From assembly GCF_016862995.1 (NCBI RefSeq), contig NZ_BOOA01000035.1, forward strand, positions 1-64,000: DNA of 64,000 nt, in the 5' to 3' direction. Below, piece by piece: positions 28,009-62,930 of the stretch. Within the stretch, counting starts at the first letter, position 1. Each line of letters starts with the position of its first letter. The position numbers and the translations under genes are program-made. The notes beneath the pieces are model-generated. The model did not search any database. It was not told the DNA's origin and saw only the letters and a program-made list of their open reading frames with translations. Origin of the DNA: Acrocarpospora phusangensis. Lineage in GTDB: Bacteria; Actinomycetota; Actinomycetes; Streptosporangiales; Streptosporangiaceae.

Positions 28009-28454
28009 CCGCCCTCCCTGATCTCGCCGCCGTTGAGCATCCCGCCCCACGGGCTCCGGCGGCGACCCCCGGCCCGGAGGCTGGCGCTTCAGTCTCCGTG
28101 CCGGGGCTTCCCGGGGAGACTTCCCCCTCCCCGGGCCACCCCTCGGTTGAAGAGGTTCTCGGATCCCTCGCGGTCGCGTGGCTCAACGAACTGTGGACGG
28201 TCGAGTTCGACGTCGCCCTGATCGCCCTGTCTCACCGCTCCTACAGCGGGGACCCCGAGGCGATGTGGGCGGACTTCGAGGAGTTCGCCAGCGCCGTCTA
28301 CCTCCGCAACGGGGTGGACAACGGCACCGTCCACTGGTCCCAGGTGGACGACGAGCTGGCCTGTTCGGAGCCGTCGGCGGCGGCGTTCAACATCGCCTGC
28401 GATCGGGTGTCTGAGGCGGCCCGCGTCCTGCTGTGCGGGAGGCGGACGCGATGA
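28005..28454 (+). CDS. hypothetical early protein
   Basis: A 149-residue protein with a Pro/Ala-rich first 45 residues and an acidic helical remainder (VAWLNELWTVEFDVALIALS). It overlaps its neighbours by four bases at each end. No family recognised. Confidence 0.65.
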   Translation: MTALPDLAAVEHPAPRAPAATPGPEAGASVSVPGLPGETSPSPGHPSVEEVLGSLAVAWLNELWTVEFDVALIALSHRSYSGDPEAMWADFEEFASAVYLRNGVDNGTVHWSQVDDELACSEPSAAAFNIACDRVSEAARVLLCGRRTR

Positions 28455-29476
28455 GCGACACCGTGACCATGAGCAAGGAAGAGTACGACCGGCTGGTCCA
28501 ACAGCTGCGCGACCTGCGTGCGCCGTTCGCGCCGGACCAGATCGGCAAGCTTCCGCGCGTCACCTGTAGCGCCTGCTCCAACTTCAGGACCAAGTGCGAC
28601 AAACACCAGAAGCAGCGCTGCAAGGACTGCCAGGCGTGGGTGTCCACCCAGCACATCCACATCGACTACGTTGGCCACGCCGACGTCACCGAACGCTTCC
28701 TGGAGATCGACCCGTTCTGGAACTGGGAGCCGTTCGCCCTCGACGAGGACGGGCTGCCCAAGCTGGACGTGGACGACCTCGGCAACCCGGTCGGCCTGTG
28801 GATTCGCCTCACCATCCTCGGCGTCACCCGCCCCGGATACGGTTCCTGCCCTGCCAACCAGTCCGACGCAATCAAAGTCCTGATCGGCGACGCACTCCGC
28901 AACGCCGGCCAGCGCTTCGGCGTCGCACTCGCGCAGTGGCAGAAGGGCGACCGGGACAACCCGGCCGCCGAGAACCCCGTCGCCGACGCCGGCCGCCGCG
29001 CCGCACCGGCCCGCCAGCAGGCCGCCGACGCGGCCGTGGTTGTCGATGAGACGTGGGTGGCCGGGTTCGAGGCGCGGTTGGCGAACGCCACCCTCGACAA
29101 CGTCGGCGGGTTCCGCCAGGACGTGATCGACGGCATGCGCTCGCAGCGGATCAACTCCGAGACCGCCAACCGGCTGCTCGCCACGGTGAAGACCCGCGCC
29201 GACGAGCTGGAGAAGGCGTCCAGGGTCCTCCCGAACGGCCTGCCCGGCAACAAGGACGGGTCCGTGTCCCGCTCCCAGCTCACGGAAGAGCAACTGGCCG
29301 CGAACGGGCTCATGACAAAGGACCAGGTCAAGGCACACAACAAGCTGGAACGCGACACGATCGCCAGCCCGCGCAAGGCGGAGCGGCTGGACGCCGTACC
29401 CGAGGGCGAGCCCTGGACGGCGGAGAAGGATCAGGCGTGGCTGGGCTCGGACAAGTCGGGTGGTGATCCGGCATGA
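28451..29476 (+). CDS. Rad52/Erf-like single-strand annealing protein
   Basis: A 341-residue protein. A Cys cluster (CSACSNFRTKC, RCKDCQ) lies near the N-terminus. The core HIDYVGHADVTERFLEIDP, LWIRLTILGVTRPGYGS and IGDALRNAGQRFGVALAQW is the pattern of actinophage Rad52/Erf-type annealases that pair complementary strands during phage recombination. The C-terminal third is charged and probably disordered. Start ATG at 28451 overlaps the preceding stop. The family call rests on pattern memory, not a search. Confidence 0.7.
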   Translation: MSDTVTMSKEEYDRLVQQLRDLRAPFAPDQIGKLPRVTCSACSNFRTKCDKHQKQRCKDCQAWVSTQHIHIDYVGHADVTERFLEIDPFWNWEPFALDEDGLPKLDVDDLGNPVGLWIRLTILGVTRPGYGSCPANQSDAIKVLIGDALRNAGQRFGVALAQWQKGDRDNPAAENPVADAGRRAAPARQQAADAAVVVDETWVAGFEARLANATLDNVGGFRQDVIDGMRSQRINSETANRLLATVKTRADELEKASRVLPNGLPGNKDGSVSRSQLTEEQLAANGLMTKDQVKAHNKLERDTIASPRKAERLDAVPEGEPWTAEKDQAWLGSDKSGGDPA

Positions 29477-38009: not shown

Positions 38010-38203
38010 CGACGATCACCCTGCCGAACGGCTGGATCCGCCCCTGGTACCCGTCCGGGCTGACCGGCCACGCCGACCCGGAATGCCCCGACCTCCTGGC
38101 CTGGGAAGGCCCCGAGCCCGCCGAAGGCCCTGGCTGGCTCAACCCGAACGTAGAGACCGACTCCGCCCGCAACTGCCGTTGCGTTGAGAGGGCTGCCCAA
38201 TGA
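38006..38203 (+). CDS. small hypothetical protein
   Basis: A 65-residue Trp/Pro-rich protein (LPNGWIRPWYPSG) with Cys at residue 28 and a CRC near the end. Overlaps both neighbours by four bases. Function unknown. Confidence 0.6.
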   Translation: MTTITLPNGWIRPWYPSGLTGHADPECPDLLAWEGPEPAEGPGWLNPNVETDSARNCRCVERAAQ

Positions 38204-39297
38204 AACTCACCATCGACCCGAAGGTCTTCGCGGAAGCGGTCACGTGGGCCGCCCGCAACCTCCCTGGACGTCCCGCCGTGCCGGTCCTGTCCGGGCTGCT
38301 GCTCGTCGCCGAAACCGACCAGCTGACCGTATCCGCGTTCGACTACGACGTGTCCGTCCAGGCGACAGTGGCCGCCGAAGTCGCCACCCCCGGCCGTGTC
38401 GTCATCCCCGGCAGGGTACTCGCCGAGATCGTCAAAAGCCTGCCGGGCGAGTCGTGGGCCGAGCTCGTCCTGGACGGATACGAGGTGGCTCTCACCTGCG
38501 GGCGCGTCGCGTTCACCCTGATGACGCTCCCCGAATCCGACTATCCGACCATCCCCGCACCGCCCGCACCGTTGGGCGCTGTAGATGGGCCGGCCTTCCG
38601 GGTCGCGATCGAACAGACCGCCATCGCCGCATCAGAGGACGACACCGTGCCGGGCCTCACCGCCGTCCGCATCGACGCGGAGGGCGACCGCCTCACGCTG
38701 GCCGCTACCGACCGCTACCGGATCGCAGTCCGCGACCTGCCCTGGAGCCTGCGCGGCATGCCTCCCGGCGGCGTACTCGTCCACCACGATGTGGTGCTCG
38801 ACCTGGCCAAGGGCGGCATCTCCGGTGAGGTCGCGCTCGGATGGGACGACAAGCTGATCGGCTTCTGCGCCGACGGCCGGGTCGTGACCGCCCGCCTGAT
38901 CGACGACAAGTACATCAACTACCGGGCGCGCATCGGGTGGGACCACCTTCCCATCGCCGCCACCGTCAACCGGGCCGCCCTGACCACCGCGATCAAGCGG
39001 GTGTCCCTGCTGGCCGACAAGGGCATGTCCGTCCGCCTGCATTTCACCTCCGACGGTGTCCTCGTCCAGGCAGGCACTGGGGACCTCGGGCGCGGGACCG
39101 AGACAGTCCCGTGCACGCTCGACGGCGCTGACGCCCGCGAGATCGGCTTCAGCCCGGCCTTCCTGCTGGACGCCGTCGGCGGAGTCCAGCAGGAGAACGT
39201 GGTCCTCCACATGGACCCGGACCACCTCCAGGTCCTGGTTCGGGGCCAGGACAGCGACTCCTACCAGTGCCTGGTGCTGGCCTTGAGGCTCGCATGA
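38200..39297 (+). CDS. dnaN: phage DNA polymerase III beta sliding clamp
   Basis: A 365-residue protein with the three repeated clamp domains: MKLTIDPKVFAEAVTWAARNLP, PAFRVAIEQTAIAASEDD followed by LAATDRYRIAVRDLPW, and TVNRAALTTAIKRVSLLAD. The end LVLALRLA replaces the usual MP[M/V]R(L) tail. A clamp gives polymerases processivity, and a phage-coded copy may recruit host PolIII or clamp-binding phage proteins. Start and stop are coupled to neighbours. Confidence 0.92.
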   Translation: MKLTIDPKVFAEAVTWAARNLPGRPAVPVLSGLLLVAETDQLTVSAFDYDVSVQATVAAEVATPGRVVIPGRVLAEIVKSLPGESWAELVLDGYEVALTCGRVAFTLMTLPESDYPTIPAPPAPLGAVDGPAFRVAIEQTAIAASEDDTVPGLTAVRIDAEGDRLTLAATDRYRIAVRDLPWSLRGMPPGGVLVHHDVVLDLAKGGISGEVALGWDDKLIGFCADGRVVTARLIDDKYINYRARIGWDHLPIAATVNRAALTTAIKRVSLLADKGMSVRLHFTSDGVLVQAGTGDLGRGTETVPCTLDGADAREIGFSPAFLLDAVGGVQQENVVLHMDPDHLQVLVRGQDSDSYQCLVLALRLA

Positions 39298-42985: not shown

Positions 42986-43577
42986 CGTTCGCCCCCCGAT
43001 CCCGCTTCGGCTCACCGACCGCCCCCAGGTGGGCGGCCTGGTCTGCCCATGGGTGAACGTCCGCCTCGCCGACGGCACCACCGACTTCCGCCAGACCTAC
43101 GGCCAGCACTGGCGCCGCGCCTGGCTGGAGCAGCTCTGCCAGGTCGACGGCCAGCGCATCGCCGGAACCCTGGTGTTCTTGGGCGGCCCGAACCAGTTGG
43201 CCGAGGACGGCTACTTCGACGAGCCGCCCCTCCACCCGGAGTGCGCGGCCTACGTGACCCGGGCCTGCCCGATGGTCGCCGGCCGGATGACCCACTACCG
43301 GTCCGGGCCCGCTCTCACCGAGGGCGCCCGGGGTGCGGTGTGCCCGGACCCGGGCTGCGACTGCGGCGGCTGGCAGCCGACCAAGCAGATCCTGCACGGG
43401 GACGGCTCCTGCAGCGTCCTCGGGGACGACCAGCGGGCCGACCCTACCGGGGAGCCCGCCCACGCCTGGTTCGCGGTCTGGGCCCGCTCCTACGCCCTCG
43501 CGCAAGGCACTGACGGTCGGCTGCTGGGCGGCATCCCTCACGACGTCGTAAGGGTCCGGGAGGTGAGCCGGCCGTGA
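42978..43577 (+). CDS. hypothetical actinophage protein
   Basis: A 199-residue protein with a possible metal site (CPDPGCDCGG) and aromatic core QTYGQHWRRAWLEQLC. Similar orphan proteins are frequent in actinophages and are sometimes misnamed from weak matches. Function unknown. Confidence 0.65.
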   Translation: MADVRPPIPLRLTDRPQVGGLVCPWVNVRLADGTTDFRQTYGQHWRRAWLEQLCQVDGQRIAGTLVFLGGPNQLAEDGYFDEPPLHPECAAYVTRACPMVAGRMTHYRSGPALTEGARGAVCPDPGCDCGGWQPTKQILHGDGSCSVLGDDQRADPTGEPAHAWFAVWARSYALAQGTDGRLLGGIPHDVVRVREVSRP

Positions 43578-43771
43578 AGTCGAGAACCGCGACCAAGAAC
43601 CGCTCCTGCGTCGGCAAGCGCGCCTACCCGACCCGGGCCAAGGCTGAAGCCGCCCTTCAGAAGCTGGTCGCCGCGGGCACCTCTGCTGAGCGGCTGAAGG
43701 TGTACGCCTGTCGCCACTGCTCTGCCGGATTCCACATCGGCCACCTGGGACGTGACCGGAGGCGGCAGTGA
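43574..43771 (+). CDS. small zinc-finger-like basic protein
   Basis: A 65-residue Arg/Lys-rich protein with Cys12 and a C-terminal CRHCSAGFHIGH that can bind one zinc. DNA binding is likely. It is the last gene before the DnaA-box-like sites. Confidence 0.7.
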   Translation: MKSRTATKNRSCVGKRAYPTRAKAEAALQKLVAAGTSAERLKVYACRHCSAGFHIGHLGRDRRRQ

Positions 43772-43807
43772 TCCACAGAGTTATCCACAGATCCCGGGTT
43801 ATCCACA
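43769..43807 (+). promoter_or_regulatory. three DnaA-box-like 9-mers
   Basis: TGATCCACA (43769-43777), TTATCCACA (43781-43789) and TTATCCACA (43799-43807) lie in tandem in a gap between phage genes. The last two are perfect consensus DnaA boxes. They precede the replication genes and may bring host DnaA to the phage origin or regulate the replication operon. Confidence 0.65.
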
Positions 43808-43903
43808 GACCTGGTCGAGCTGAGGCGCAAGCACGCTGGCTGGTTCAGAGTGCTCCCAAGCCGGCGATTCGCCCGGCCCGTAGCCCACGGACGGGAGCCC
43901 GCG

Positions 43904-45301
43904 ATGGCCGTTAGCAAGAGCCTGCGCATGCAGATCCTGCGCAGGGACAACTACACCTGCCAGGCCTGCGGCGCGAAGGCGCCCAACGTCGAACTTGAGG
44001 TCGACCACGTGCTGGCGGAGGCTCTCGGGGGCACGGACGAGGCGTCCAACCTGCAGACACTCTGCGACCCCTGCAACTCGGGCAAGGCCGCTACACCGCC
44101 GGACGCGGCCACCGTGGCGAAGGTCGCCGGCGATGCGGCTCGGTGGGCCCAGGCGATCGAAGCCGCAGCGGAGAGGATGCTGGCTGCGCGGGAAAGTCAG
44201 GCTGCGGAGCATGCCCAGTTTGATCAGTGGTGGAACGCGTGGACCCTCGCCGAGGGTGGTGCCGGTGGGCGCGCCGTGCATAGGGACCCAGGATGGCAGC
44301 AGTCCATCAGCAGGTTCCTCGCGATGGGGCTGCCGCTCCCGATCCTCAAGGACTGCCTGGATATCGCCATGTCCAGGAAGAAGATCAGGGCGGCAGACGT
44401 CTGGCGCTACTTCTGTGGGATCGCCTGGGGCAAGGTTCGCGAGCTTCAGGCCGCCGCCGCTGAGGCCATCCGCCCGGAGCAAGACCCCAGCGACGAGGAC
44501 TACGAGCCGAACTTTGACCACCGTCTGATTCCCGGCCGGGTCAGCCTCGCCAACGAGTTGCTCTCCTGGTTCCAGGCGGACGCCGTCGAGGTGCTCATCT
44601 CCGAGGCTCGCGAATGGTACGACGACGAGCTGTTCGCGGACTTCGATCCGCCACCTTCGGACGACCAGATCACCATCCACGCCGGACTGGATGCGATGAG
44701 CACCTCTCGGTGGGCAGTCCTTTCCCTCACGCGCGCCGTATCCGACCTTCTCGAAAGCTTCTCCGATCAGGAGATCGACACAGCTAGGAACCAGGCTGTG
44801 GCCGTCCTTGGTGACGAGATCATGTCGCGGCCTGCCCAACTTCGTGACGCCCAGTACTACGGGCAACTCGCGCACTGGCTCGCCGTTGGCCACGCTCGCA
44901 GCCTCATGGACGGGCTTTCCCTTGAGGCTCGGGCGGAGTGGCTGGGGTATGTCGCGGCGTGCCGGGAACCGGACCCCTGGGGAGACTCGGCTCCGCTTTC
45001 CGAAGACCTGCAGATCAAGTACGTCGGCGTGAACATTCGCCTGGCCAGGTCCGGCTACAGACACCCCCGGATGTGTGAGTCCCGCGGGGAGCACATCGAA
45101 GCATGTCCCCGTGTGGCGAGCTTCCGTGCCTACATCGTCGAACTCGACTGTTGCTCGGTTGGGGACGAGCCCGGACACGAAGGCCATCGAGTGTGCGAGC
45201 AGCACCTGGAGCAGCTCGTGGACGGCACCTACACGAACACCAAAGGCACGCGCTTCACGGTGCGCGACTACCGGCCGATAGAAGGAGCCGACACCACGTG
45301 A
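43904..45301 (+). CDS. HNH-domain protein at head of the replication module
   Basis: A 465-residue protein. Its N-terminus is an HNH nuclease fold: RRDNYTCQACGAKAPNVELEVDHVLAEALGG and CDPCN. The remaining 390 residues are mostly helical (e.g. LKDCLDIAMSRKKIRAADVWRYFCGIAWGKV) with a Cys/His group near the end. Start ATG 43904 follows GGGAG. The long C-terminal part is not recognised; it could help replication or packaging. Confidence 0.75.
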   Translation: MAVSKSLRMQILRRDNYTCQACGAKAPNVELEVDHVLAEALGGTDEASNLQTLCDPCNSGKAATPPDAATVAKVAGDAARWAQAIEAAAERMLAARESQAAEHAQFDQWWNAWTLAEGGAGGRAVHRDPGWQQSISRFLAMGLPLPILKDCLDIAMSRKKIRAADVWRYFCGIAWGKVRELQAAAAEAIRPEQDPSDEDYEPNFDHRLIPGRVSLANELLSWFQADAVEVLISEAREWYDDELFADFDPPPSDDQITIHAGLDAMSTSRWAVLSLTRAVSDLLESFSDQEIDTARNQAVAVLGDEIMSRPAQLRDAQYYGQLAHWLAVGHARSLMDGLSLEARAEWLGYVAACREPDPWGDSAPLSEDLQIKYVGVNIRLARSGYRHPRMCESRGEHIEACPRVASFRAYIVELDCCSVGDEPGHEGHRVCEQHLEQLVDGTYTNTKGTRFTVRDYRPIEGADTT

Positions 45302-46284
45302 ACGCCCCGCTCCTCAGCGACGGGACCTATCGCGCTCATTGGCTGCGGGAGGTTCTCAGAAGCACGCAGATTACCGATTCGGTGCGCGTGCTTCTAATGA
45401 CCCTCGCTCTCTACATGGACGCGTCAGGGCGCGTTTCAGTGCCGCGCGAAGAGGTGGCGGGAGTCCTTGGCCGGAATCCGCGAAAGGTTGGGGAGAAGAT
45501 CCGGGCCACGATTGATTCCGGATTCCTCGTGCAGTTGGCGCGCGGGCAGAAACATCAGACAGCGGTGTTCCAGGCGGCCATTCTCGGGCGGGTTCTCAGT
45601 CGGACCCCCGGGGAACCGACTGAGAACGGGATGGCTGCCGACCTCAGCAGGCTCCCCGGGGACCCTGCTGAGACCGAGGGCGAAGTAGAAGTCAGTGGGT
45701 CCCCCGGGGGCCCGGCTGAGAATTCTCAGGGGGCCGATATCTACGACCCTGAGAATTCGGCTCAGGGTACTAGAAATCGGCCCCCTGAGCCTCAGGGGGC
45801 CGATTTCAGGGAGACCCCCGGGGGTCCGCCTGAGAATTCTCAGCAGGCCCCCCGGGGGACCTCCCAGTTCTTTAGTAGTGGTGATGTAAGTGAGGAAGTT
45901 GATCTCTCTGATTCTTCCTCTGGTCAACTCTTCGACTTGCGCGCCGCTGCGCGGCGGCGCGAGCAAGAAGAAGATCCCGAGTCAAAGCCGTCACGTCGCA
46001 AGCCAGAACGGCCCATCCCCGCCGACTTCGCCGTAACCCCGGCGATGCGGAAGTGGGCCGCAGACAAGGGCTACGACGTCGACCTCGACCGGGAGACCTT
46101 CCGGTTCATCAACCACGCCCACCAGAACGACCGCCGCTGCCGCGACTGGCTCGCCGCTTGGCGCAACTGGATCGACAAGGCACAAGAGCAACAGGCCAGG
46201 GCCACACGTCGCCCCGTCGCCGCCTTCCCTGCTCGTGGCACCTACGACAAATCCAAGGTCTTCGGGAACAGGAACCGCACATGA
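45298..46284 (+). CDS. lambda-O-like replication initiator with embedded origin
   Basis: A 328-residue protein. Residues 1-98 are a winged-helix DNA-binding domain (VLLMTLALYMDASGRVSVPREEVAGVLGRNPRKVGEKIRA; parts shown). Residues about 99-215 are a low-complexity Pro/Gly/Glu linker with a 16-residue repeat (SRTPGEPTEN, SRLPGDPAET, SGSPGGPAEN). The C-terminal part (VTPAMRKWAADKGYDVD; INHAHQNDRRCRDWLAAW) resembles the DnaT/helicase-loader-binding domain. The linker DNA is full of inverted repeats and is followed by an AT-richer run, as in lambda O. Loader and DnaB-like genes come next. Confidence 0.8.
   Translation: MNAPLLSDGTYRAHWLREVLRSTQITDSVRVLLMTLALYMDASGRVSVPREEVAGVLGRNPRKVGEKIRATIDSGFLVQLARGQKHQTAVFQAAILGRVLSRTPGEPTENGMAADLSRLPGDPAETEGEVEVSGSPGGPAENSQGADIYDPENSAQGTRNRPPEPQGADFRETPGGPPENSQQAPRGTSQFFSSGDVSEEVDLSDSSSGQLFDLRAAARRREQEEDPESKPSRRKPERPIPADFAVTPAMRKWAADKGYDVDLDRETFRFINHAHQNDRRCRDWLAAWRNWIDKAQEQQARATRRPVAAFPARGTYDKSKVFGNRNRT
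45592..45867. repeat. inverted-repeat cluster (putative phage origin) inside the initiator gene
   Basis: Five units have a 12-base C/G centre (CCCC-GGGG core) with arms CTCAGnnGG and CCnnCTGAG. IR1 is 45592-45627 with 12-bp perfect arms and IR2 45643-45672 with 9-bp perfect arms; IR3 45691-45720, IR4 45805-45834 and IR5 45839-45868 are degenerate. Centres of IR1, IR2 and IR3 are exactly 48 bases apart. Between IR3 and IR4 lie a palindrome with 17-bp arms (45773-45789 and 45791-45807), arms ACCCTGAG/CTCAGGGT (45746-45768), and two copies of the palindrome CTGAGAATTCTCAG (45716-45729, 45830-45843). Confidence 0.85.
45861..45940. other. AT-richer tract next to the repeat cluster (putative unwinding element)
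   Basis: About 45% GC over 80 bases in a phage that is otherwise near 68%. It follows the inverted repeats directly and encodes a Ser/Asp-rich linker (SSGDVSEEVDLSDSSS). The pattern resembles the AT-rich part of the lambda origin, where strands open. Confidence 0.6.
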
Positions 46285-46844
46285 TCACGCCCCTTGACGA
46301 CTGGCAGGACCAACGCCGTCTGCGCCGCCTCGCCGAATTCCAGGCCCGGCGCCCGCTGCTGCTCCGGCACAAGGGCCCACTCCGCGACGAGATCGCCGAG
46401 TGGGGCAGCCGCCTGTTCGACGGCACCGCCCGCACAATGGTGCTCGTCGGCGGCACCGGCACCACCAAGACCTGGAGCTTGTGGGAGGTCCTGGAGCGCG
46501 CGGTGGCCGCCGGGTACGCGGACACGATCGTGTTCGCCACGGCCGCCGACTGGCAGGAGGCGGTGGGGCCGCCCGTCGACCGGCAGGCGCTCCGCGTGAT
46601 GCGCCGGGCCGGCGTGCTGGTGCTGGACGACTTCGGGTCCACGCGGATCAACGAGTGGGCGGTGGACTGCCTGTCCCCGGTCGTTGACGAGCGCTGGTCG
46701 TGGGGTCGGCCGACCGGCATCACCTCCAACTTGGAGGACTTCGACGAGGCCCTGGGCGAGCGCGCGGAACGCATCACCTCCCGGCTGGGGCACGAGGCCA
46801 CCGTCGTGGTTCTGGACGGGGCGGACCGGAGGGCGGCCGGATGA
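46281..46844 (+). CDS. DnaC/IstB-like helicase loader ATPase
   Basis: A 187-residue AAA+ type ATPase with Walker A GGTGTTKTWSLWEV (about residues 57-70) and Walker B VLVLDDFGS, then a sensor-like PTGITSN and an arginine ERITSRLG near the end. The order matches DnaC/IstB loaders that place DnaB at origins. It follows the initiator and overlaps the DnaB-like gene by four bases. Confidence 0.85.
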   Translation: MITPLDDWQDQRRLRRLAEFQARRPLLLRHKGPLRDEIAEWGSRLFDGTARTMVLVGGTGTTKTWSLWEVLERAVAAGYADTIVFATAADWQEAVGPPVDRQALRVMRRAGVLVLDDFGSTRINEWAVDCLSPVVDERWSWGRPTGITSNLEDFDEALGERAERITSRLGHEATVVVLDGADRRAAG

Positions 46845-48283
46845 CCGAGGCTTCGACGGGCGTCGAGGGGTTCTTCGAGGGGTGGACGGCAGGTCCGGGC
46901 GTGCTCGCGGCGGAGATGGCGATCGCAGGGGCCGTGATCCAGTCGCAGGCTTGCCTGGAGGAGGCGGTCACCCTACTCCGCCCCGATGACTTCTACAGCC
47001 GAGCGGGGCTGGTGTTCGCCGCCGCGAAGGCAGTGCTGGACGACGGCCGGAAGGTCGAGCCGACGGCCGTGCTGATTGAACTCCAGGACCGTGGGGAACT
47101 CGCCCGGGTCGGCGGCGGCGCCTACCTGCATGACCTGATGCCGCACGCGGCGCTGCCCGACTCCATCGGCTGGTGTGCTCGCGAGGTGAGGGAGGATGCG
47201 GATCGGCGGAACACCCGGGCGGCTCTGGGGTGGGGTACACAGCAGACCGAGGAAGATCGGTGGGATGGCGACGCCACGCTGGATCTGATCCGTAAGCGCC
47301 TGGACGAAGTGGCCGCCGGCCGGGTGGGCGACCTGCCTCCGAGCGTCGCCGACGACATGGTGTCCCTGCTGGAGGATTTGGAGAATCCGCCGGAGGCGGT
47401 CCCGGGCGTGGTTCCGCCGTACCTGGATCTTGCGGCCTTGCTGACGGCGCTGCGGCCCGGCGAGGTGGTCGTCGTGGGGGCGAGGCCAGCGATCGGGAAA
47501 TCGACAGTGGCCACCGACCTCCTCCGGTCCGCCGCGCTGCGGCAGGCTAAGCGCTCGGTGATGTTCACGTTGGAGATGTCTCGCCGCGACGTGCTCACTC
47601 GCATGGTGTCCGCCGAGTCCCAGGTCCCGCTCAAGTCGATCCGGGACATGCAGGTATCGGCGAACGACCTGGACCGGGTGGCGGAGGCGGGGTCGAGGAT
47701 CGCGGCGGCCCCGCTAGTGATCGACGACACGCCGGGGTGCTCCATCGAGCGGATACGTACCGTGCTGCGGACCCTGTCCCGGTCGGGACCGCTGGGCTTG
47801 GTGGTGGTCGACTATCTGCAGTTGATGACACCGCCGAAAGCGGAGAGCCGGCAGCAGGAGGTGTCGGGTCTCTCCCGGGAGTTCAAGCTGCTGGCGAAGC
47901 AGTTTCAGGTGCCCTTGGTGCTGCTGTCCCAGCTCAACCGCGACCCCGAGAAGCGCTCCGACCGGCGCCCGGTCATCGCGGATCTGCGAGAGTCGGGGGC
48001 GATCGAGCAGGACGCCGACATCGTGATCCTTCTCCACAGGGACGATGCCTACGACGTCGAATGCCCCCGCGCTGGCACGGCCGACCTGATCGTGGCGAAG
48101 AACCGGAACGGCCCCATCACGACGATCACCGTGGTCAACCAGCTCCACTACGGCAAGTTCGCCGACTTCGCGAAGGTCGAAGAGCCGCGGGGGCGCCCCG
48201 ATCTGCGCGCCGTGCGCACCGATCCGCCGAAGTCTTCACAGCCCGCTCCTTACCGACCCTGGGAGGCCAACGTTGGCCAGTGA
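46841..48283 (+). CDS. DnaB-like replicative helicase
   Basis: A 480-residue helicase. The N-terminal domain (EMAIAGAVIQSQACLEEAVTLL) and the RecA-like core are both present: Walker A GARPAIGKSTVATDLL (near residue 212), EMSRRDVLTRMVS, Walker B LVVVDYLQLM, and LRESGAIEQDADIVILLHRD. It unwinds DNA at the phage fork. Length is typical. Confidence 0.95.
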   Translation: MTEASTGVEGFFEGWTAGPGVLAAEMAIAGAVIQSQACLEEAVTLLRPDDFYSRAGLVFAAAKAVLDDGRKVEPTAVLIELQDRGELARVGGGAYLHDLMPHAALPDSIGWCAREVREDADRRNTRAALGWGTQQTEEDRWDGDATLDLIRKRLDEVAAGRVGDLPPSVADDMVSLLEDLENPPEAVPGVVPPYLDLAALLTALRPGEVVVVGARPAIGKSTVATDLLRSAALRQAKRSVMFTLEMSRRDVLTRMVSAESQVPLKSIRDMQVSANDLDRVAEAGSRIAAAPLVIDDTPGCSIERIRTVLRTLSRSGPLGLVVVDYLQLMTPPKAESRQQEVSGLSREFKLLAKQFQVPLVLLSQLNRDPEKRSDRRPVIADLRESGAIEQDADIVILLHRDDAYDVECPRAGTADLIVAKNRNGPITTITVVNQLHYGKFADFAKVEEPRGRPDLRAVRTDPPKSSQPAPYRPWEANVGQ

Positions 48284-54181: not shown

Positions 54182-54964
54182 ATGAGCATCGACCTGGTCA
54201 CTAGGAAGGCGTGGGGAGCCCGCGCACCACGCGGCGCCTACTCCCGCTTGACCTCCACGCGCGGCGTCAAGGTGCACTACACGGGCGGGCGCATCGACCC
54301 GAGGATGCTGGACGACCACAGCCGCTGTGTCGCCGCGGTGCAGGCCATCCAGGATCACCACCAGTTCGGCAACGGGTGGATCGACACGGGGTACAGCGCG
54401 CTCACCTGCTGGCACCGCAAGGTGTTCGTCGCCCGAGGCCCTCACGTCGTCCCGGCCGCTAACGGCGCCGGGCTCAACAGCGGCCACTACGCCGTATGCG
54501 CCCTCGCCGGAAACTCCGGCCTGGTGGAACCGACCGACGACCTCCTGCTGGGCATCCTCGACGCGATCGAATGGCTGCGCGCCGAGGGCGGCGCGGGACG
54601 GGAGGTCAAAGGCCACCGGGACGGGTACTCCACCGACTGCCCCGGAAAGCCGCTCTACGCGTGGGTCAAGGCCGGCGCTCCGAGGCCGGGAATCGTTCCG
54701 CCGCCGGCGAGCCCCCCGTCGAACGCGCCCAGCTGGCCGGGTCGGCTGTTGGAGTTCCCGCCCATCACCCGCGGCTCGGACGTCATGCAGTGGCAGCGCC
54801 AGATGCGCGATGCCCACGGGTTCGAACTCGCCGCCGATGGCGCGTACGGGCAGCGCTCCCGTGATGTCTGCAAGACCTTCCAGAGGAGGGCCGACCTCGA
54901 CGACGACGGGATCGTCGGCCGCCTCACCTGGCGGGCCGCGTTCGCCGACCAGGACGAGACATGA
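54182..54964 (+). CDS. endolysin: amidase/PGRP domain plus peptidoglycan-binding domain
   Basis: A 260-residue lysin. An N-acetylmuramoyl-L-alanine amidase (amidase_2/PGRP) domain has VHYTGG, WIDTGYSAL, VKGHRDGYSTDCPG with the zinc His and Cys ligands. After a Pro-rich linker, a PG-binding domain (ITRGSDVMQWQRQM, AYGQRSRDVCKTFQ) forms the C-terminus. It cuts the cell wall at the end of infection. It lies upstream of terminase, as in some mycobacteriophages. Confidence 0.93.
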   Translation: MSIDLVTRKAWGARAPRGAYSRLTSTRGVKVHYTGGRIDPRMLDDHSRCVAAVQAIQDHHQFGNGWIDTGYSALTCWHRKVFVARGPHVVPAANGAGLNSGHYAVCALAGNSGLVEPTDDLLLGILDAIEWLRAEGGAGREVKGHRDGYSTDCPGKPLYAWVKAGAPRPGIVPPPASPPSNAPSWPGRLLEFPPITRGSDVMQWQRQMRDAHGFELAADGAYGQRSRDVCKTFQRRADLDDDGIVGRLTWRAAFADQDET

Positions 54965-55985: not shown

Positions 55986-56537
55986 GTGAGCGAGCGTACC
56001 TGTGAGTACTGCCAAGAGTCATTCGTTCCAAGTCGGCCTACCCGGCGTTTCTGCAGCGTGGCCTGTTCCACCAAGAGCCACCGCAGGAGCAATGAGTACG
56101 CACACCTCGTAGCGCAGGGCAAGAAGGAGTGCGCCACATGCGGGGAGACGAAGCCTCTCGACGAGTTCCACCGGCGGACGTCCGCCGGGCGGGACGGATG
56201 GGCATCCCAGTGCAAGCCCTGCACATCGGTCCGCTGCGCCGCTCGCAACGCCACCGAGGCGGTGCGTCAGCGGAGCCGTGAACGGAAGTTGGTCAAGCGA
56301 TACGGCATCTCGCTGGCTGATTACGACCAGATGCTTGCCGATCAGGATTTCGCCTGCGCCATCTGCGACCGCGCACACAACGACGAGCAGGGCCCGCTGT
56401 ACGTCGACCACTGCCACGCGACCGGCCGGGTTCGGGGGCTTCTCTGCCGCCCTTGCAATACAGCCATCGGTCACTTCGAAGACAACCGCCAACGGCTGAT
56501 CCAGGCTGCGGCCTACCTCGAAAGGAACAGCACATGA
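55986..56537 (+). CDS. Endonuclease VII-type HNH homing endonuclease
   Basis: A 183-residue protein. An N-terminal zinc finger (CEYCQESF, CSVAC), a second (CATCGE, CKPC) and a C-terminal recombination endonuclease VII domain (YGISLADYDQMLADQDFACA; VDHCHATGRVRGLLCRPCN). GTG start at 55986. Its stop overlaps the ATG of the holin-like gene. It is probably a free-standing homing nuclease. Confidence 0.88.
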   Translation: MSERTCEYCQESFVPSRPTRRFCSVACSTKSHRRSNEYAHLVAQGKKECATCGETKPLDEFHRRTSAGRDGWASQCKPCTSVRCAARNATEAVRQRSRERKLVKRYGISLADYDQMLADQDFACAICDRAHNDEQGPLYVDHCHATGRVRGLLCRPCNTAIGHFEDNRQRLIQAAAYLERNST

Positions 56538-56914
56538 AGATATTCGGAAGAGAACCGGCCGCGTGGCTGCACGCGCTCCAGGCCGTACTCGCCTTCGCCA
56601 CCACGCTCCCGCTCGTCCAGGCGTGGGGGCTCAGCGAGGAAGCCGCCGCGGTCGTGATGACCATCGCGGGTGGCGTCGTCGCCGCGTGGGTCGCCATCGC
56701 AACCCGGCCGTTCGTCGTCAGCGCCCTCACCGGGGGAGTGCAGACGATCCTCACCGGGATGATCGCCTTCGGCCTGCCGCTCTCGCAGGAGTCGGCGGGC
56801 GCCGCGGTGGCCGCCCTCAATGTCGTCCTCATGCTGCTGATGCCGCTCGGCTTGACGCCGACAGCCGACCCTGCCCCCGACTTCGTGCGAGCCCGACGCC
56901 AGATCGTGCGCTGA
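56534..56914 (+). CDS. holin-like membrane protein
   Basis: A 126-residue protein with three to four membrane helices (about residues 15-30, 36-56, 60-82 and 86-106) and a basic tail. It follows the endolysin region and is likely a holin. Its first codons (ATA, GGA, AGA, GAA) are rare in this phage, unlike the rest. Confidence 0.72.
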   Translation: MKIFGREPAAWLHALQAVLAFATTLPLVQAWGLSEEAAAVVMTIAGGVVAAWVAIATRPFVVSALTGGVQTILTGMIAFGLPLSQESAGAAVAALNVVLMLLMPLGLTPTADPAPDFVRARRQIVR

Positions 56915-56950: not shown

Positions 56951-58570
56951 GTGACCATCACCGACACCTACCTGGCCGACGTGGACGCGTCCACGTTCGA
57001 CCTGGAGGCGTACGTGCTGGAACGCGTGGACCCTCGCCTCCTCGAATCGGCAGAGGGCCGTCGGGCGCTCACCCGCCTCGACCCGCTCCTGTTCGCGGTC
57101 CTCTACACGCCGCACCTGATCAAGCACGACGGCAAGGTCTCGTTCGCCGACCTGCACCTGTGGCTGTGCCGCCACGCACGCCGGTGGCTACGCAAGCCAG
57201 GCCCGCGTGAAGAGCGGCATGCCATGGTCGCGCCGAGAGAGTCGGGGAAGTCCAGCTGGGCGTTCAAGATTCTCCCGCTCTGGGCCGCCGCGCACGGGCA
57301 CCTGCGCTTCGTCGCGGCATTCTCCTCGTCAGCCACCCAGGCGGAAGGCCATGTCAGCGCGGTCCGCAACGAGATGGACACCAACCAGCTGCTCCGCCAA
57401 GACTTCCCGGACTTGTGCGCTCCCGCGCGGCGGCCGAACGGCTCGCCCGTGGCCGACTCGCGGCAGATGCTCTACACCCGGTCCGGGTTCTCCTTCGCCG
57501 CGCGCGGCCTCGACTCCGAGGTGCTGGGCCTGGTCAACGCCGATAACCTCCGACCGGACCTGATCATTCTCGATGATGTCGAGCCGGACGAGTCGAACTA
57601 CACCCCGTACCAGGCGAAGAAGCGCCTGACGACGATCGTCGACACGGTGCTCCCGATGGCCGAGACGGCACACGTCGCCCTGGTGGGCACGGTCACTATG
57701 CCGGGTTCGATCGTGCACCAACTCGTCAAGACGGTCACCACCACCGAGAAGCCGGCCGACTGGATCGAGGAGGAACGCTTCCAGGTCCACTACTTCGAGC
57801 CGATCGTGAAGACGGAGGACGGTGAGGAGCGGAGCATCTGGCCGGCGAAGTGGCCGCTCGACTACCTGCGCTCGATCGAGCGCACCAGGTCCTACAAGAA
57901 GAACTTCCTGAACCAGCCGGTCGCGGTCGACGGCGACTACTGGACCCAGGAGGACTTCCGGTACGGCGACGTCCAGGCGGCCCGCGTGCTGCTCCAGATC
58001 GACCCTGCGGTGTCGACGTCCCGCACCTCGGACTTCTACGGGCTGGCCGTGGTCGCCTACGAGCGATCGAGCGGCGTGCGCCCGCCCGAGGCCGGGCATG
58101 GGATCGCCGCCGCCGTGGCCGCATTCGATGAGTATCGGGGCACGAAACCGATGCCCCGATGCGTGGTCCGCTACGCCCGCGCCCTACGCATGACGCCGGA
58201 GCGGCTTCGGGAGAAGGTCCTGGAGATCCTCACAGTCTTCCCGGAGATCGGCGCGGTCCGGATCGAGGTCAACCAGGGCGGCGACACCTGGCGGAGCGTG
58301 CTTCACGACCTGCCGGTGCGGCTGCTCGTCCACACCGAGTCGGCGCCGAAGCACGTACGGGCGACCTGGCTGCTGAACGACTACCAGCGCGGGCGCGTGC
58401 TCCACGCCGAGAAGCTTCCCGAGGCCGAAGAGCAGATGTGCGCCTACCCGCACGTCCTCCACGACGACCTGATCGACGCCGTCGGTGCCGGGGTCCGCTA
58501 CTTCCTGGCCAGGCCCAAGCCGCGGCGGGCCAGCGCCACCACGACCAGCTACACGAGAGGTGCCGCATGA
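56951..58570 (+). CDS. terL: terminase large subunit
   Basis: A 539-residue packaging motor. The ATPase has Walker A APRESGKSSW (about residue 94) and Walker B LIILDDVEPDES (about 204); the nuclease domain has LLQIDPAVSTSRTSDFYGLA and HDDLIDAVGAG as acidic metal ligands. Start GTG at 56951 after GGAGAGGAGG. Confidence 0.92.
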   Translation: MTITDTYLADVDASTFDLEAYVLERVDPRLLESAEGRRALTRLDPLLFAVLYTPHLIKHDGKVSFADLHLWLCRHARRWLRKPGPREERHAMVAPRESGKSSWAFKILPLWAAAHGHLRFVAAFSSSATQAEGHVSAVRNEMDTNQLLRQDFPDLCAPARRPNGSPVADSRQMLYTRSGFSFAARGLDSEVLGLVNADNLRPDLIILDDVEPDESNYTPYQAKKRLTTIVDTVLPMAETAHVALVGTVTMPGSIVHQLVKTVTTTEKPADWIEEERFQVHYFEPIVKTEDGEERSIWPAKWPLDYLRSIERTRSYKKNFLNQPVAVDGDYWTQEDFRYGDVQAARVLLQIDPAVSTSRTSDFYGLAVVAYERSSGVRPPEAGHGIAAAVAAFDEYRGTKPMPRCVVRYARALRMTPERLREKVLEILTVFPEIGAVRIEVNQGGDTWRSVLHDLPVRLLVHTESAPKHVRATWLLNDYQRGRVLHAEKLPEAEEQMCAYPHVLHDDLIDAVGAGVRYFLARPKPRRASATTTSYTRGAA

Positions 58571-58851: not shown

Positions 58852-59885
58852 TGTACGCCTGGGTCACCAACCACGGCAAGCACGGCGGCGCGGCCAAGGC
58901 GTGGATGCACCGCAGCTTCTACCTGCACGGCCTGCCGCGCTCGGTCCTTTGGTGCCGGATCTTCGGTCACCGCCCGGTGGTGGACGGGTACGGCCCGGTC
59001 CGGCCTGGCTTGCACGCGGCGCGGTGGGTGTGCTGCGACCGGTGCGGCGTGCGCCCCGACCCCCAGGGCAACCTCGACGAGTCGGTGTGGAGCCTCGGGC
59101 AGCGGTATGACGGGCCGTTCGTGGAGCCATCCGGGCAGCTCGACCGGGCCACGGTCGAGCGCGTGGCCGAACTGATCTGTACTGGCGAGAGGAAGCCCGG
59201 ACCTTGGCCGAAGAAGCCGACCGGCGACGTGTCGGCTGAGCTGGTGGTCGGCCGTACCTTCAGGGCGTTCAGCGTAGAACTGAAGATCGGCAATGCGGGT
59301 TCCGAGAATAAGGTCGCCGCCCACCTGCAGATCTGGCCATTCGGGGCGCTCTACCTCTCCTTCGGAAGCTTCGGGACCTGGCTCCAGCGACGACTGAACC
59401 CAGTCGGATACGACTCCCGGGGGATCGAACTCTCAGCTGGAGAGTGGCGGATCAGCTGGAAGTTGTGGGCCAAACGAAACGAGTGGTCCCGGGACGACCC
59501 GAAGTGGATGCAGGGCAGCATCAGCCTCGACCTGATCGAGCACATCTACGGGCCGAAACGCTACAACTACGAGAACGTCGGCGAGCCCCAACAGATCACG
59601 GTCCGCATGCCCCACGGCGATGACCACGAGGCGACCGTCCAACTTCAGCGGCAGACTCTCGGCCGCCGTCGAGGCCGCAAGCGGTACGCGTGGGTGGTGG
59701 ACTGGACGGCCGAGGGGGGTATCCCTACCCGGCCAGGGGAGGATCGCGGCGGGGTGTGGAGCTCGGCTGTCGAGGTCCCGGACGCGGCAGTCGAGGACGG
59801 CGGGTGGCCGATGGTCGCCGCCGCCTGCATCGCGTCGGCACTGACGGCCGACCGGGTGCGGCGTGGATATCGGGTGGCCACGTGA
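58851..59885 (+). CDS. hypothetical protein between terminase and portal
   Basis: A 344-residue protein. Cys at WCRIFGHRP and CCDRCGVRP could bind metal. The middle is beta-rich. No family recognised. Its place between terL and portal is unusual for a structural gene. Confidence 0.65.
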   Translation: MYAWVTNHGKHGGAAKAWMHRSFYLHGLPRSVLWCRIFGHRPVVDGYGPVRPGLHAARWVCCDRCGVRPDPQGNLDESVWSLGQRYDGPFVEPSGQLDRATVERVAELICTGERKPGPWPKKPTGDVSAELVVGRTFRAFSVELKIGNAGSENKVAAHLQIWPFGALYLSFGSFGTWLQRRLNPVGYDSRGIELSAGEWRISWKLWAKRNEWSRDDPKWMQGSISLDLIEHIYGPKRYNYENVGEPQQITVRMPHGDDHEATVQLQRQTLGRRRGRKRYAWVVDWTAEGGIPTRPGEDRGGVWSSAVEVPDAAVEDGGWPMVAAACIASALTADRVRRGYRVAT

Positions 59886-61336
59886 TCGAGGATCTGATCC
59901 CCGCACTCGCTGAACTCCGCGCGGCTCGTCCGGCGTACGAGGAAGCCGAGATGTACCGGGAGGGCGAAGCCCCCGAGAAGTTCGCCTCGCCCGCGATTCA
60001 GCGGGCGCTCCGGGGCGGCACCAAGGACTTCGCCGTGAATCTGGCCGCGCGCCCGGTTGACGCCGTCCTCGACCGGCTGGAGATCACAGGCGTCGTCTGC
60101 ACCCCCGACCAGCACACCGCGCTGTTCGAGACGGCGGTCTGGGAGGCCAACGAGCTCGACATCGAGTACCCGGAAGTGCACGACAAGACGCTGACATTCG
60201 GCGACGGCTACCTGTTCGTCTGGCCCTCGGAGAGCAGCCGCGACGAGGAAGCGGACGGCGAACAGGTCGCGAGAATCGACGGCGTCGACATCTTCTTCAA
60301 CTCCCCGCTGACCTGCCGGGCGATCTACGACGACGAGAACCCGCGCCTGATACGGCTGGTCATCAAGGCATGGTGCCGGGGGGACGGCAAGGAGACGGAG
60401 ACCCGGGTCAACCTCTACTACGCCGATCACTGCGAGAAATGGGTGACCAGGCCGGACTCCCGGGGCAAGGACGAGGACCGACTGACGGCCGCCGACTTCG
60501 AGCCGTACACCGACGAGCACACCGACGAGCAAGGCCACATCGACAACCCGTACGGCCGCCCGCCGTTCTTCCACTTCCGGACCCGCCGCCCCTACGGTCG
60601 GCCCGTCCACAAGGGCGCGTACGGGTCGCAGGACGCCATCACCAAACTGATCACGAACCAGATGGCGGCCTCGGATTTCGCCGCGTTCCCTCAGCGGTAC
60701 GGCCTTCTCGATCCGACGGCCGGTTCGGACGACGACATCGACTGGGGCGACGAAGACGAGACCGAGCCGGAGGACCGCGACTCCCAGCTCGTCGCGTCCC
60801 CGGGCAGCATGTGGAACCTGCGGCACTACAAGGAGGTCGGCCAGTTCGCCCCCGCCGACCCCGACGCGTTCCTGAAGCCGCAGGGCCAGTTCATGCGGTT
60901 CATGGCCGCGACCACCACCACGCCGAGCCGGTGGTTCGACCCGTCCGGCGATGTCCCGTCCGGCGAGAGCCTGAGGGCGGACGACGCGCCGCTCAGCAAG
61001 AAGGCCAAGTTCATCGCACGCACCTTCGGGGCGACCTGGAAGGACGCCTTCGAGTTTGCGCTGCGCATCCTCGGCGCGACAGCCAAGGTCGCTGTCCAGT
61101 GGGCGCCCCCACAGGCCACCGACGACCTGGAGTTCTGGCAGGCCGTCCAAGCCCGTCAGGACGCCGGCGTGCCGGTCCGGCAGACACTCCTGGAGGCGGG
61201 CTACACGGACGCCGAGGTCACCGCGTGGGGCTACACCGAGGACCAGCCGAACGGACCCGACTGGAGCAGGCCGTCCCGAGAAGAACCGCCCATTCCCGTC
61301 CCGGTGCCACCCGCTCCGCCCGGGGATGACACGTGA
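59882..61336 (+). CDS. phage portal protein
   Basis: A 484-residue portal of the SPP1 gp6 type: DGYLFVWPSESS, KGAYGSQDAITKLITNQMAASD, FMAATTTTPSRWFD and a long C-terminal helix region. It forms the ring through which DNA enters the head. Start GTG at 59882 overlaps the gene before it. Confidence 0.9.
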   Translation: MIEDLIPALAELRAARPAYEEAEMYREGEAPEKFASPAIQRALRGGTKDFAVNLAARPVDAVLDRLEITGVVCTPDQHTALFETAVWEANELDIEYPEVHDKTLTFGDGYLFVWPSESSRDEEADGEQVARIDGVDIFFNSPLTCRAIYDDENPRLIRLVIKAWCRGDGKETETRVNLYYADHCEKWVTRPDSRGKDEDRLTAADFEPYTDEHTDEQGHIDNPYGRPPFFHFRTRRPYGRPVHKGAYGSQDAITKLITNQMAASDFAAFPQRYGLLDPTAGSDDDIDWGDEDETEPEDRDSQLVASPGSMWNLRHYKEVGQFAPADPDAFLKPQGQFMRFMAATTTTPSRWFDPSGDVPSGESLRADDAPLSKKAKFIARTFGATWKDAFEFALRILGATAKVAVQWAPPQATDDLEFWQAVQARQDAGVPVRQTLLEAGYTDAEVTAWGYTEDQPNGPDWSRPSREEPPIPVPVPPAPPGDDT

Positions 61337-62181
61337 CGCCCGACGAGGCCGAGCGCGAGATCACAGACCTGGAGGACTCGACGGCCGCCCGGGTACGCCG
61401 GATCGTGGCCGACGCCCTCGCCGGCGGGGTGGACGCAAGCCGCCTCAGGTCGTTGGCCCGGAGGCTGGCCGACATCCTGAGGGGCGTGGTCGTGGGTGCG
61501 GCCCAGCTCGGGGCCCGGATCGCCCAAGCCCTGGCCGGGCTGCGCCCGCGACGCGTCGTCATCCCGCCCGCCGTGCTGCCGCCCGTGACGCCCCCCATCG
61601 AGCGGGTCGTCGCCCGCGCGGTGGCCGACCTCGAACATCGCCCCCGGCGGCAGGTCGCCGAACGCGCTGCCGACCAGCTCGCTGACGTCGGGCAGGGCCT
61701 CGTCACGCGCGCGGTCGCCGCAGGCACGGAGGTCGTGGCCCGGCGGCGACCGGACGCCGAGGTGATGTGGATAGCCGAGCGGGACGCCTGCCTGACCTGC
61801 CAGCGGCTGTCCGGCCACATCATGCCGCCCGGCCGCCGGTTCCCGGCCAGCGTGACCTACGGCGACAAGCCGCTGAAGTGGGACAAGTTCGACGGCCACC
61901 CGCCCCGGCACCCTCACTGCCGGTGCCGGATCCGCGTCGTCATCGGCGACATGAGCGCAGCTTCGGCGGCCCTGCAGCGGGAGGCCCGGCGGAGTGTGGT
62001 CCGCGGCTTCAGCATGCCGGGCGAATCGGGTGCGGCCCGGGTGCGCGCTGCTGACCGGCTGCTCCGCCGCGGCGCTGGCCTCCCCCGGTCGGTCGAGGAG
62101 TACGGCCGCGCGGCTGTTGCGGCGGGCCGGTTCCTGCGCGGCCGCCAAGTACCTGCGGGCGCTGGACGGCGCCCACGATGA
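61333..62181 (+). CDS. MuF-like minor head protein
   Basis: A 282-residue protein with the MuF-type zinc motif ERDACLTCQRLSG and HPPRHPHCRCRIRVV. The N-terminal 130 residues are helical. It is next to the portal, the usual place for SPP1 gp7-like head proteins. Confidence 0.85.
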   Translation: MTPDEAEREITDLEDSTAARVRRIVADALAGGVDASRLRSLARRLADILRGVVVGAAQLGARIAQALAGLRPRRVVIPPAVLPPVTPPIERVVARAVADLEHRPRRQVAERAADQLADVGQGLVTRAVAAGTEVVARRRPDAEVMWIAERDACLTCQRLSGHIMPPGRRFPASVTYGDKPLKWDKFDGHPPRHPHCRCRIRVVIGDMSAASAALQREARRSVVRGFSMPGESGAARVRAADRLLRRGAGLPRSVEEYGRAAVAAGRFLRGRQVPAGAGRRPR

Positions 62182-62192
62182 GAGGAGTCCGG

Positions 62193-62930
62193 ATGGACTG
62201 CACAAACACCCAGCCCAAGACCCTGCCGGTCCACCCGTGGACTGGCCTGCGGGCGCTGGCTGTCATGCCGTCGGGCCGCGTCATGTGGCCGGTCGTGGGC
62301 GGCTCGGGAGACGACGACCCAGAAGGTGATCCGGAGGCCGACCCGGAGAACGACCCCGAGGCCGATCCGGAGGGCGACCCCGAAGCTGATCCGCAAGAGG
62401 ATCCCGACGAGGGGAAGAAGCCGAAGCCCGCGAAGGGCGACACCGTGCCGCGCTCCGAACTGGCCAAGGTGATCGCCGCTCGGGATGAGGCGAAGAAGAA
62501 GCTTCGCGAGAGGGACCGGGAGCTGGAGGACCTGAGGCGGCAGGGGGAGACCGCCGAGGAGACCGCACGCCGTGAAGCGGCCGAGGAGGCCAGGAAGACG
62601 GCCGACGCCCGTTACAAGCCGATCTCGGTACGGGCGGCCCTGCTGGAGGCGGGCGTCCTGCCCTCCCGGGTGAAGGGCGCGCTCAAGCTGGTGGACCTGG
62701 AGCAGGTCGACGTGGATGAGGACGGCGAGGTGTCCGGACTGGACGGTCAGCTGGCCAGCCTGAAGGAGGAGTGGCCGGAGCTGTTTGAGGCGCCCAAGGG
62801 CGACGGGAAGCCGGAGCCGCGCCGCCCGCCGAGTAGGGGCGCCGACGGGGCTGACCGGAAGCCGCCGTCGAAGAAGCCGCCGACCGCCAGCGAGCTCCAG
62901 GCGGCCAAGCTGCTCGGCAAGGCGGTGTAG
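62193..62930 (+). CDS. head scaffolding protein
   Basis: A 245-residue acidic protein. An Asp-Pro-Glu repeat region (about residues 42-74) is followed by a coiled coil (KVIAARDEAKKKLRERDREL) and a helix end common to phage scaffolds before the capsid gene. Start ATG at 62193 after AGAGGAG. Confidence 0.85.
   Translation: MDCTNTQPKTLPVHPWTGLRALAVMPSGRVMWPVVGGSGDDDPEGDPEADPENDPEADPEGDPEADPQEDPDEGKKPKPAKGDTVPRSELAKVIAARDEAKKKLRERDRELEDLRRQGETAEETARREAAEEARKTADARYKPISVRAALLEAGVLPSRVKGALKLVDLEQVDVDEDGEVSGLDGQLASLKEEWPELFEAPKGDGKPEPRRPPSRGADGADRKPPSKKPPTASELQAAKLLGKAV
62315..62413 (+). repeat. tandem DP(E)x coding repeat
   Basis: About eight copies of a 12-base unit encoding Asp-Pro-Glu-Gly/Ala/Asn inside the scaffold gene. 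Such repeats change length by slippage. Confidence 0.65.

Follow-up and report, generated by a model that had tools for sequence, protein, structure and literature searches.

A probable replication origin within the initiator gene of a temperate actinophage, and the apparent joint inheritance of its repeats with the initiator's N-terminal domain

Origins located inside initiator genes, as well as the exchange of an initiator's N-terminal domain together with its origin, are already known from phages lambda and SPP1 and from plasmids pSK41 and pPR9. In lambda, the iterons are 19-bp inverted repeats, which are bound by O dimers and are positioned inside gene O beside an AT-rich tract (PMC7466680, PMC5043065). 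In SPP1, oriL lies within gene 38 and includes repeats and an AT-rich DUE, with gp39 as the loader and gp40 as the helicase (PMC6316719). The sites of the pSK41 initiator are found in the linker-coding DNA of rep, and the pPR9 initiator represents a natural exchange of the N-domain and ori for the HTH_36 type (PMC5703833). Actinophage origins seem to be poorly mapped: for the RepA-like initiators of mycobacteriophages Miko and Rachaly, the authors suggest an origin either upstream of or within repA, which leaves the two positions open, and their paper reports that the stretch from the tail genes to parS-L lacks repeated motifs (PMC7157519). No description of intragenic origins in actinophages was found in open-licence PMC papers.

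The window, i.e. the whole stretch of 64,000 nucleotides analysed here (bases 1-64000 of contig C35 in a draft genome), carries temperate phage genes from about 22 kb onward (20 proteins were scanned). Its positions 45592-45945 very likely constitute the replication origin of this temperate tailed phage, situated inside the linker-coding part of the phage's own initiator gene. The lambda-type, intragenic position was proposed in the first-pass annotation of this DNA and is well supported by sequence comparison with relatives; the loader and DnaB-like genes that were said to follow are also present.

45298..46284, + strand: initiator gene, GTG start, 328 aa (wHTH at residues 8-93, disordered linker at 102-237, helical C-domain at 248-304)
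45595..45624, no strand: dyad 1, A class (CTCAG-N6-CCCCGGGG-N6-CTGAG), offset 24
45643..45672, no strand: dyad 2, A class, offset 24
45691..45720, no strand: dyad 3, A class, offset 24
45725..45753, no strand: dyad 4, B class (CTCAGGG...CCCTGAG, asymmetric centre), offset 23
45761..45789, no strand: dyad 5, B class, offset 23
45791..45801, + strand: lone half-site CTCAGGGGGCC
45805..45834, no strand: dyad 6, A class, offset 24
45839..45868, no strand: A-class site, left half good (CTCAGCAGG), right half degenerate
45866..45945, no strand: AT-rich tract, candidate unwinding element (GC 0.46; inner 60-mer 45868-45927, GC 0.40)
46281..46844, + strand: DnaC/IstB-like helicase loader
46841..48283, + strand: DnaB-like replicative helicase

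The array spans codons 99-191 of the initiator gene (45592-45868) and comprises six dyads and two lone half-sites. The four full dyads with CCCCGGGG centres are centred at 45609.5, 45657.5, 45705.5 and 45819.5, at spacings of 48, 48 and 114, and are followed at a spacing of 34 by the fifth CCCCGGGG site (centre 45853.5), which has a single good half and does not share the codon phase of the remaining A dyads. The inverted repeats with C/G centres that had been noticed in the linker are indeed present in this segment, but the B-class dyads at 45725-45753 and 45761-45789 lack the C/G centre, their centres being unrelated to CCCCGGGG, and this class had not been separated out. To call the palindromes perfect was too strong, as in an ungapped scan the repeat at 45592-45627 is 89% and the palindrome at 45643-45672 is 94% complementary; among exact inverted repeats with short spacers, the longest (45773-45807) has 17-nt arms. 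Within the 64 kb, strong inverted repeats are packed most densely, at the 300-bp scale, in this array (3 of the 13 found), and all eight matches to CTCAGNNGGNYCCCCGGGG (0 or 1 mismatch) in the 9.1-Mb host genome fall inside it.

The initiator gene is preceded by AGAAGGAG, as seen by eye, before its GTG start at 45298; its 3' end overlaps the start of the loader gene (46281), and the 3' end of the latter overlaps the start of the DnaB gene (46841). The best PHROG match of the initiator is phrog_1408, replication initiation protein (9.1e-6), over residues 185-304, i.e. the end of the linker and the C-domain. Searches against Pfam gave no significant match for the N-domain, no lambda O model among the matches and no RepA_N domain, and nothing significant was returned by the sequence against solved structures. 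In the AlphaFold model, built from a 6-sequence alignment (mean pLDDT 56.8, pTM 0.32), a winged-helix N-domain is confidently predicted at residues 8-93 (block pLDDT 84-90 over residues 11-80), and the disordered linker (102-237) coincides with the array and the AT-rich tract. Foldseek comparison of the model with the PDB yielded weak winged-helix matches, none at E<=0.001, including MarR, ArsR, 4pql ('N-Terminal domain of DNA binding protein') and 5kbj ('Structure of Rep-DNA complex'), which we take to represent the pSK41 RepA. The BFVD comparison gave 77 matches within the 0.001 threshold; phage HTH proteins, a GpO N-terminal protein, a putative replication protein O (Min27) and a replication initiator protein are among them. 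As the disordered linker would lead one to expect, whole-chain TM-scores are low. Since the winged helix is a very common fold, these predicted similarities are weak evidence of kinship with lambda O.

By the sequence tests run, the initiator is not a member of the lambda O family, and the designation 'lambda-O-like' is retained for its presumed mode of working and dropped for its sequence, which has no significant Pfam match. The layout is that of the lambda origin and of Stx phages P27 and 933W, with an array of dyad iterons in the middle of the initiator gene, an adjoining AT-rich tract and a loader gene, which in lambda (gene P) lies in the same region and in the window lies directly downstream of the initiator. 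A GpO N-terminal protein occurs among the fold matches. The earlier contrast between palindromes and simple iterons was mistaken, because the 19-bp iterons of lambda, to which O dimers bind, are inverted repeats as well (PMC7466680, PMC5043065). The differences lie elsewhere: no sequence similarity to lambda was detected, the dyads measure 27/28 bp (TCAG-CTGA) as opposed to 19 bp, the half-site sequence is different, and the window has two dyad classes, GC-rich sites and a DnaB gene that follows. SPP1 resembles the window in having an origin (in the window, a probable one) in the initiator gene and a phage-encoded loader and DnaB-family helicase, whereas its repeats are described as direct and it has a second origin, oriR; a phage search with the window's initiator gave no SPP1 match. 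The pSK41 initiator likewise consists of a wHTH N-domain, a central linker and a helical C-domain, with sites (in the window, candidate sites) in linker-coding DNA. However, its C-domain binds the host DnaG primase, whereas a phage loader and DnaB follow in the window, and its Rep boxes hold an A+T-rich tract, whereas the window's sites are GC-rich. At the level of layout and linkage, the pPR9 exchange of N-domain and ori is of the same kind as that among the window's relatives; the arrangement of RepA_N plasmids, with an exchangeable N-domain and linker ori before a C-domain, was found here in an initiator without Pfam RepA_N. Miko and Rachaly, compared by their published description alone, are like the window in having an actinophage initiator. 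The array and tract of the window most likely work like lambda ori.

We infer binding, melting, loading and origin activity of the array as follows. N-terminal winged-helix dimers would bind each dyad via two opposed half-sites, yTCAGGgTGmC, and the filled array of six dyads and two half-sites would bend or wrap the DNA, upon which the adjacent AT-rich tract (45866-45945) would melt. The C-domain and the DnaC-like loader could then place the phage DnaB on the opened strands, so that theta replication starts. The N-domain and its sites would form one heritable specificity cassette, and the C-domain, loader and helicase a second module.

The 80-base tract that had been placed directly after the repeats, at about 45% GC, agrees with the measured value of 0.46. 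The 60-mer at 45868 (GC 0.40) is the lowest in the window, whose mean GC is 0.69; the best 80-mer at the tract ties for the window's lowest GC, and at the 100-mer scale the tract ranks fourth. A comparison is provided by L009, part of a 66.8-kb IMG/VR phage contig whose initiator shares 54% identity (best segment, residues 3-305) and whose gene order, judged by eye, is that of the window. Its array is comparable, with A dyads CTCAGCATGACCCCCGGGGGTCATGCTGAG and B dyads CTCAGGGTGAC...GCACCCTGAG; all six A-motif matches of the contig (0-1 mismatch) lie within it, and the lowest-GC 60-mer of the 38 kb read (GC 0.37, at 16852) directly follows it. In some relatives the tract is weak: among the 13 loci of the GC test, the lowest 60-mer has a GC of at least 0.50 in seven, and it lies inside the array in four and within the C-domain part in one (L029).

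The same binding could alternatively serve transcription, with the initiator occupying operators in its own gene and repressing or shaping expression of the replication operon, while the origin lies elsewhere. The weak resemblance of the wHTH fold to MarR/ArsR-type repressors in the PDB (no match at E<=0.001) is compatible with such a role, and intragenic binding could block transcription. We nevertheless regard it as unlikely, given that the array is internal to the gene and that a sigma-70-type scan of 43400-46400 returned no promoters (other promoter types being outside the scan), that six dyads and two half-sites are followed by the lowest-GC tract in two phages, and that the layout matches known origins. 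A terminator scan of 43400-46400 gave one terminator-like site, as against 1.7 expected.

Besides the replication module, the following features were recognised in the window.

20005-20080: 6C RNA (RF01066, Rfam)
22411-23871: serine integrase-like gene
28433-29476: single-strand annealing protein
38200-39297: sliding-clamp-like processivity factor (phrog_947, 3e-65)
43768-43809: three DnaA-box-like sites (GTGATCCACAGA followed by two copies of GTTATCCACAGA), 1.8 kb upstream of the array
43850-45301: HNH endonuclease gene (phrog_14314, 9e-62), whose stop overlaps the initiator start
54182-54964: endolysin
56534-56914: holin
56951-58570: terminase
59690-61336: portal
62178-62930: scaffold

DNA methyltransferases are also encoded in the prophage part. 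At the gathering threshold, the Rfam scan returned nothing but the 6C RNA, which is found just left of the integrase together with a ParA-like gene (20502-21557) and DnaA-box-like sites at 20400 and 20418. HNH genes also directly precede the initiators of L064, L065 and L068, and one lies two genes before that of L063. The phage encodes the sliding-clamp-like factor besides its own DnaB and loader. Just past the AT-rich tract, a Leu-Phe pair (initiator residues 211-212, 45928-45933) is followed by Asp, Gly, Asn or Thr; the pair recurs in seven of the eight loci inspected by eye, the exception being L036, and could be a recruitment motif for a clamp or helicase.

The DnaA-box-like cluster at 43768-43809 raises the possibility that the origin is a host DnaA-dependent site. 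All three boxes are near the consensus, two of them exact; tandem TTATCCACAG copies lying within 20 bases are found at just two places in the 9.1-Mb genome; the GC skew reverses near 44 kb; and in the L047 module, from another genus, a pair of such boxes immediately precedes the initiator gene. Yet initiator, loader and helicase are all encoded by the phage itself, TTRTCCACA is absent from the 38 kb of the L009 phage, and TTATCCACAG was found in only two of 58 loci (L047 and the window's own L010), many of which are, at about 3 kb, too short for a fair test. On balance, a DnaA-dependent origin appears quite improbable. The second DnaA-box pair of the genome (C4:175153) was considered as the host oriC and could not be confirmed, the sole ORF of at least 330 aa within the surrounding 7 kb being a T2SSF protein. 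The GC skew of the window switches sign twice, near 44 kb and near 52 kb; as the L009 phage shows no clear switch at its array and does not reproduce the one near 44 kb, skew was not relied on as independent evidence.

Protein scans yielded few relatives of the initiator: against genome contigs, none with the single protein and three with an alignment, and against viral contigs, one with the protein and two with the alignment, one of these being the same contig. Whole-genome searches were therefore used, and the N-domain profile matched 14 of 341 genomes of the family, own included. In all, the window's N-domain type is represented by 16 distinct loci (the window, L009, L021-L024, L026-L033, L035 and L036). 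The first-pass annotation had suggested searching initiator genes of other actinophages for the CTCAG...CTGAG unit, and an exact-unit scan of viral contigs gave two stretches, one in the L009 contig and the other, L018, an isolated site with no initiator seen nearby, which was judged a chance match. The linkers of L023 and L024 resemble that of the window, those of L021, L022 and L035 contain TCAGGGTGMC dyads only, and those of L036/L025 carry AAGGGTCCG...CGGACC repeats. The half-site TCAGGGTGAC is present both in L009, of the window-like group, and in L022, of the second group. The L036 N-domain, at 57% identity, is closer than the clade-2 relatives (46-51%), and differs around the predicted recognition helix and carries a different repeat. 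A group in one genus has GTCACCCCCGGGGGTGAC and GTTTCC...GGAAAC palindromes; in L029, L030 and L032, both kinds were observed to share one linker (about nt 300-460), which may reflect two binders or two binding modes.

In the seven TCAG-bearing loci used for geometry, the nearest inward partner of a TCAG half-site, counted without a preset distance, lies 23 (14 cases) or 24 (12 cases) bases away in 26 of the 39 half-sites with a partner, while the outward spacing is looser (10 bases in 15 of 31). The half-site consensus yTCAGGgTGmC was derived from 34 dyads picked by geometry, so that its TCAG core, although not the GGTGmC part, is conserved by choice; two of the 36 geometric dyads had been dropped for low symmetry before the consensus and re-pairing tests. 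A fixed inward spacing combined with variable centres, as read from these sequences, fits recognition by a dimeric protein, although common ancestry of the copies could have preserved the spacing as well. Instead of being protein sites, the palindromes might form hairpins or cruciforms, either in mRNA or in origin DNA that is single-stranded, and some dyads are near-perfect with long arms. However, symmetry is not lost when halves are exchanged between dyads of one locus and class (207 observed versus 204.7 +/- 4.5; 743 of 2000 reach it), G-T mismatches, favoured in RNA stems, are no more frequent (16) than A-C mismatches (23), and the centres of B-class dyads are non-palindromic while the spacing is unchanged. 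The halves thus show no co-variation beyond the shared consensus, which speaks against hairpins, and this unsupported reading was set aside as very improbable.

The linker's inverted-repeat score of 41 was not reached in any of 2000 sequences under each of three synonymous nulls, namely gene-wide permutation (mean 1.07, maximum 23), codons drawn from nine other phage genes (mean 0.31, maximum 12) and permutation within the linker (mean 3.42, maximum 33). Plus-strand half-sites of the array occur in codon frames 1 and 2, four in each, so that one DNA word is preserved across different peptides. The computation shows that the array is under DNA-level selection. Among 11 tested loci with the window's N-domain (the window and ten relatives), ten exceed all 150 synonymous shuffles, and L027 has no linker inverted repeat at the score used. 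This test omitted L026, L029 and L031, which belong to the same genus group as three tested loci and have a weaker repeat-word signal (8-10 of 200), L033, a weak match, and L028, which is outside every analysis and differs from L027, ungapped, at 396 positions. The remaining alternative, that a repetitive, proline-rich linker selected as protein yields palindromic DNA by chance in GC-rich codons, has negligible probability: the linker peptides are repetitive (TPGGPAEN-like) and the repeated words of L035 are partly so explained (15 of 200 shuffles reach the count), but it is contradicted by the failure of all synonymous nulls for the window and for ten of the 11 loci tested, and by the reading of one DNA word in different frames.

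Whether repeat words go with homology in the N-domain or in the C-domain was assessed in 35 initiators (14 with the window's N-domain type, 14 loader-linked, four C-domain-linked and three from cultured phages). Copies or overlapping window loci (L001-L008, L010, L011, L016, L017, L019, L020, L025, L034, L037-L039, L041 and L043) were outside the set, as were L018 (the chance match), L028 and L033. At least three repeat words were shared by 17/27 pairs related in both N- and C-domain (N+C+), 20/86 N+C-, 0/66 N-C+ and 2/416 N-C- pairs. As the first segments reached into the array, the comparison was repeated without the repeat-coded peptide, with segments cut at the array edges (L048 then having no N segment), and gave 17/25, 20/76, 0/61 and 2/433, respectively. 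The pairs are not independent; among the N-only pairs, 66 of 86 share fewer than three words and 46 share none, and eight of the 27 N-and-C pairs share no repeat word. Repeat-word content was reached by at most 5 of 200 synonymous shuffles in 24 of the 35 initiators (by none in 17) and by more than 5 in the other 11, which include L035 (15), L026 (10), L031 (9) and L029 (8) of the window's N-domain type; L042 and L048 have no excess of repeat words over synonymous shuffles.

Of the 341 genomes, 17 (own included) contain relatives of the loader (E<=1e-15), and the initiators upstream of them mostly have other N-domains and other repeats; no match to the loader was found in cultured phages. Within the window's genus, one genome has a 91%-identical loader situated behind an initiator with an HTH_36 N-domain (Pfam 7e-6, above cut-off), whose GGAAC palindromes, of the GGAACTGTRGTTCC type, are unrelated to those of the window. 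By sequence, this seems the cleanest single case of exchange. The comparison suggests that the N-domain and its DNA sites are passed on jointly, as a single exchangeable unit. We consider it reasonably likely that temperate phages of actinobacteria share an undescribed origin system, in which a wHTH/HTH domain and its own iteron array form a plug-in cassette before interchangeable helicase-recruiting C-domains. In open-licence PMC papers, no description was found of the repeat class, the N-domain or its spread among actinophages, nor of an origin with these repeats, as the annotation had supposed.

If such a system exists, the origins of many actinophages, including cultured Gordonia and Mycobacterium phages, would be readable from the initiator gene alone, and cassette exchange would let phages escape origin incompatibility. 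The rule that linker repeats are inherited with the N-domain names candidate origins to within a few hundred bases in the window, its relatives and the cultured phages Birdsong, Dorito and Catfish. These loci also offer a natural collection of data for matching helix residues to the half-sites that they read.

Among cultured phages, the Kithara initiator matched 25 records, of which the 22 non-Kithara ones (15 phage names) share the N-terminal 100 residues. Six of the 22 were taken for the test, including the close relatives Typha and Nadezda; Schmidt was taken as a C-domain relative and is outside this count. GCT(A/T)AGC/GCTAGC sites are present in the linkers of all six Kithara-type initiators (three to six each), and their whole-gene totals were reached by 5, 0, 1, 1, 0 and 1 of 1000 synonymous shuffles (means 0.35-1.41), counts that are not blind, since the motif was chosen after viewing these linkers. 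Kithara itself is weaker, with two linker sites, three in total and 32 of 1000 shuffles. The lowest-GC 40-mer of the gene follows the main GCTWAGC cluster in five of the six genes, the exception being Nadezda. After this cluster, at about nt 397-441, the linkers of L063, L064, L065 and L066 also contain CAGAGACAGAGACA repeats, which are perhaps part of the origin.
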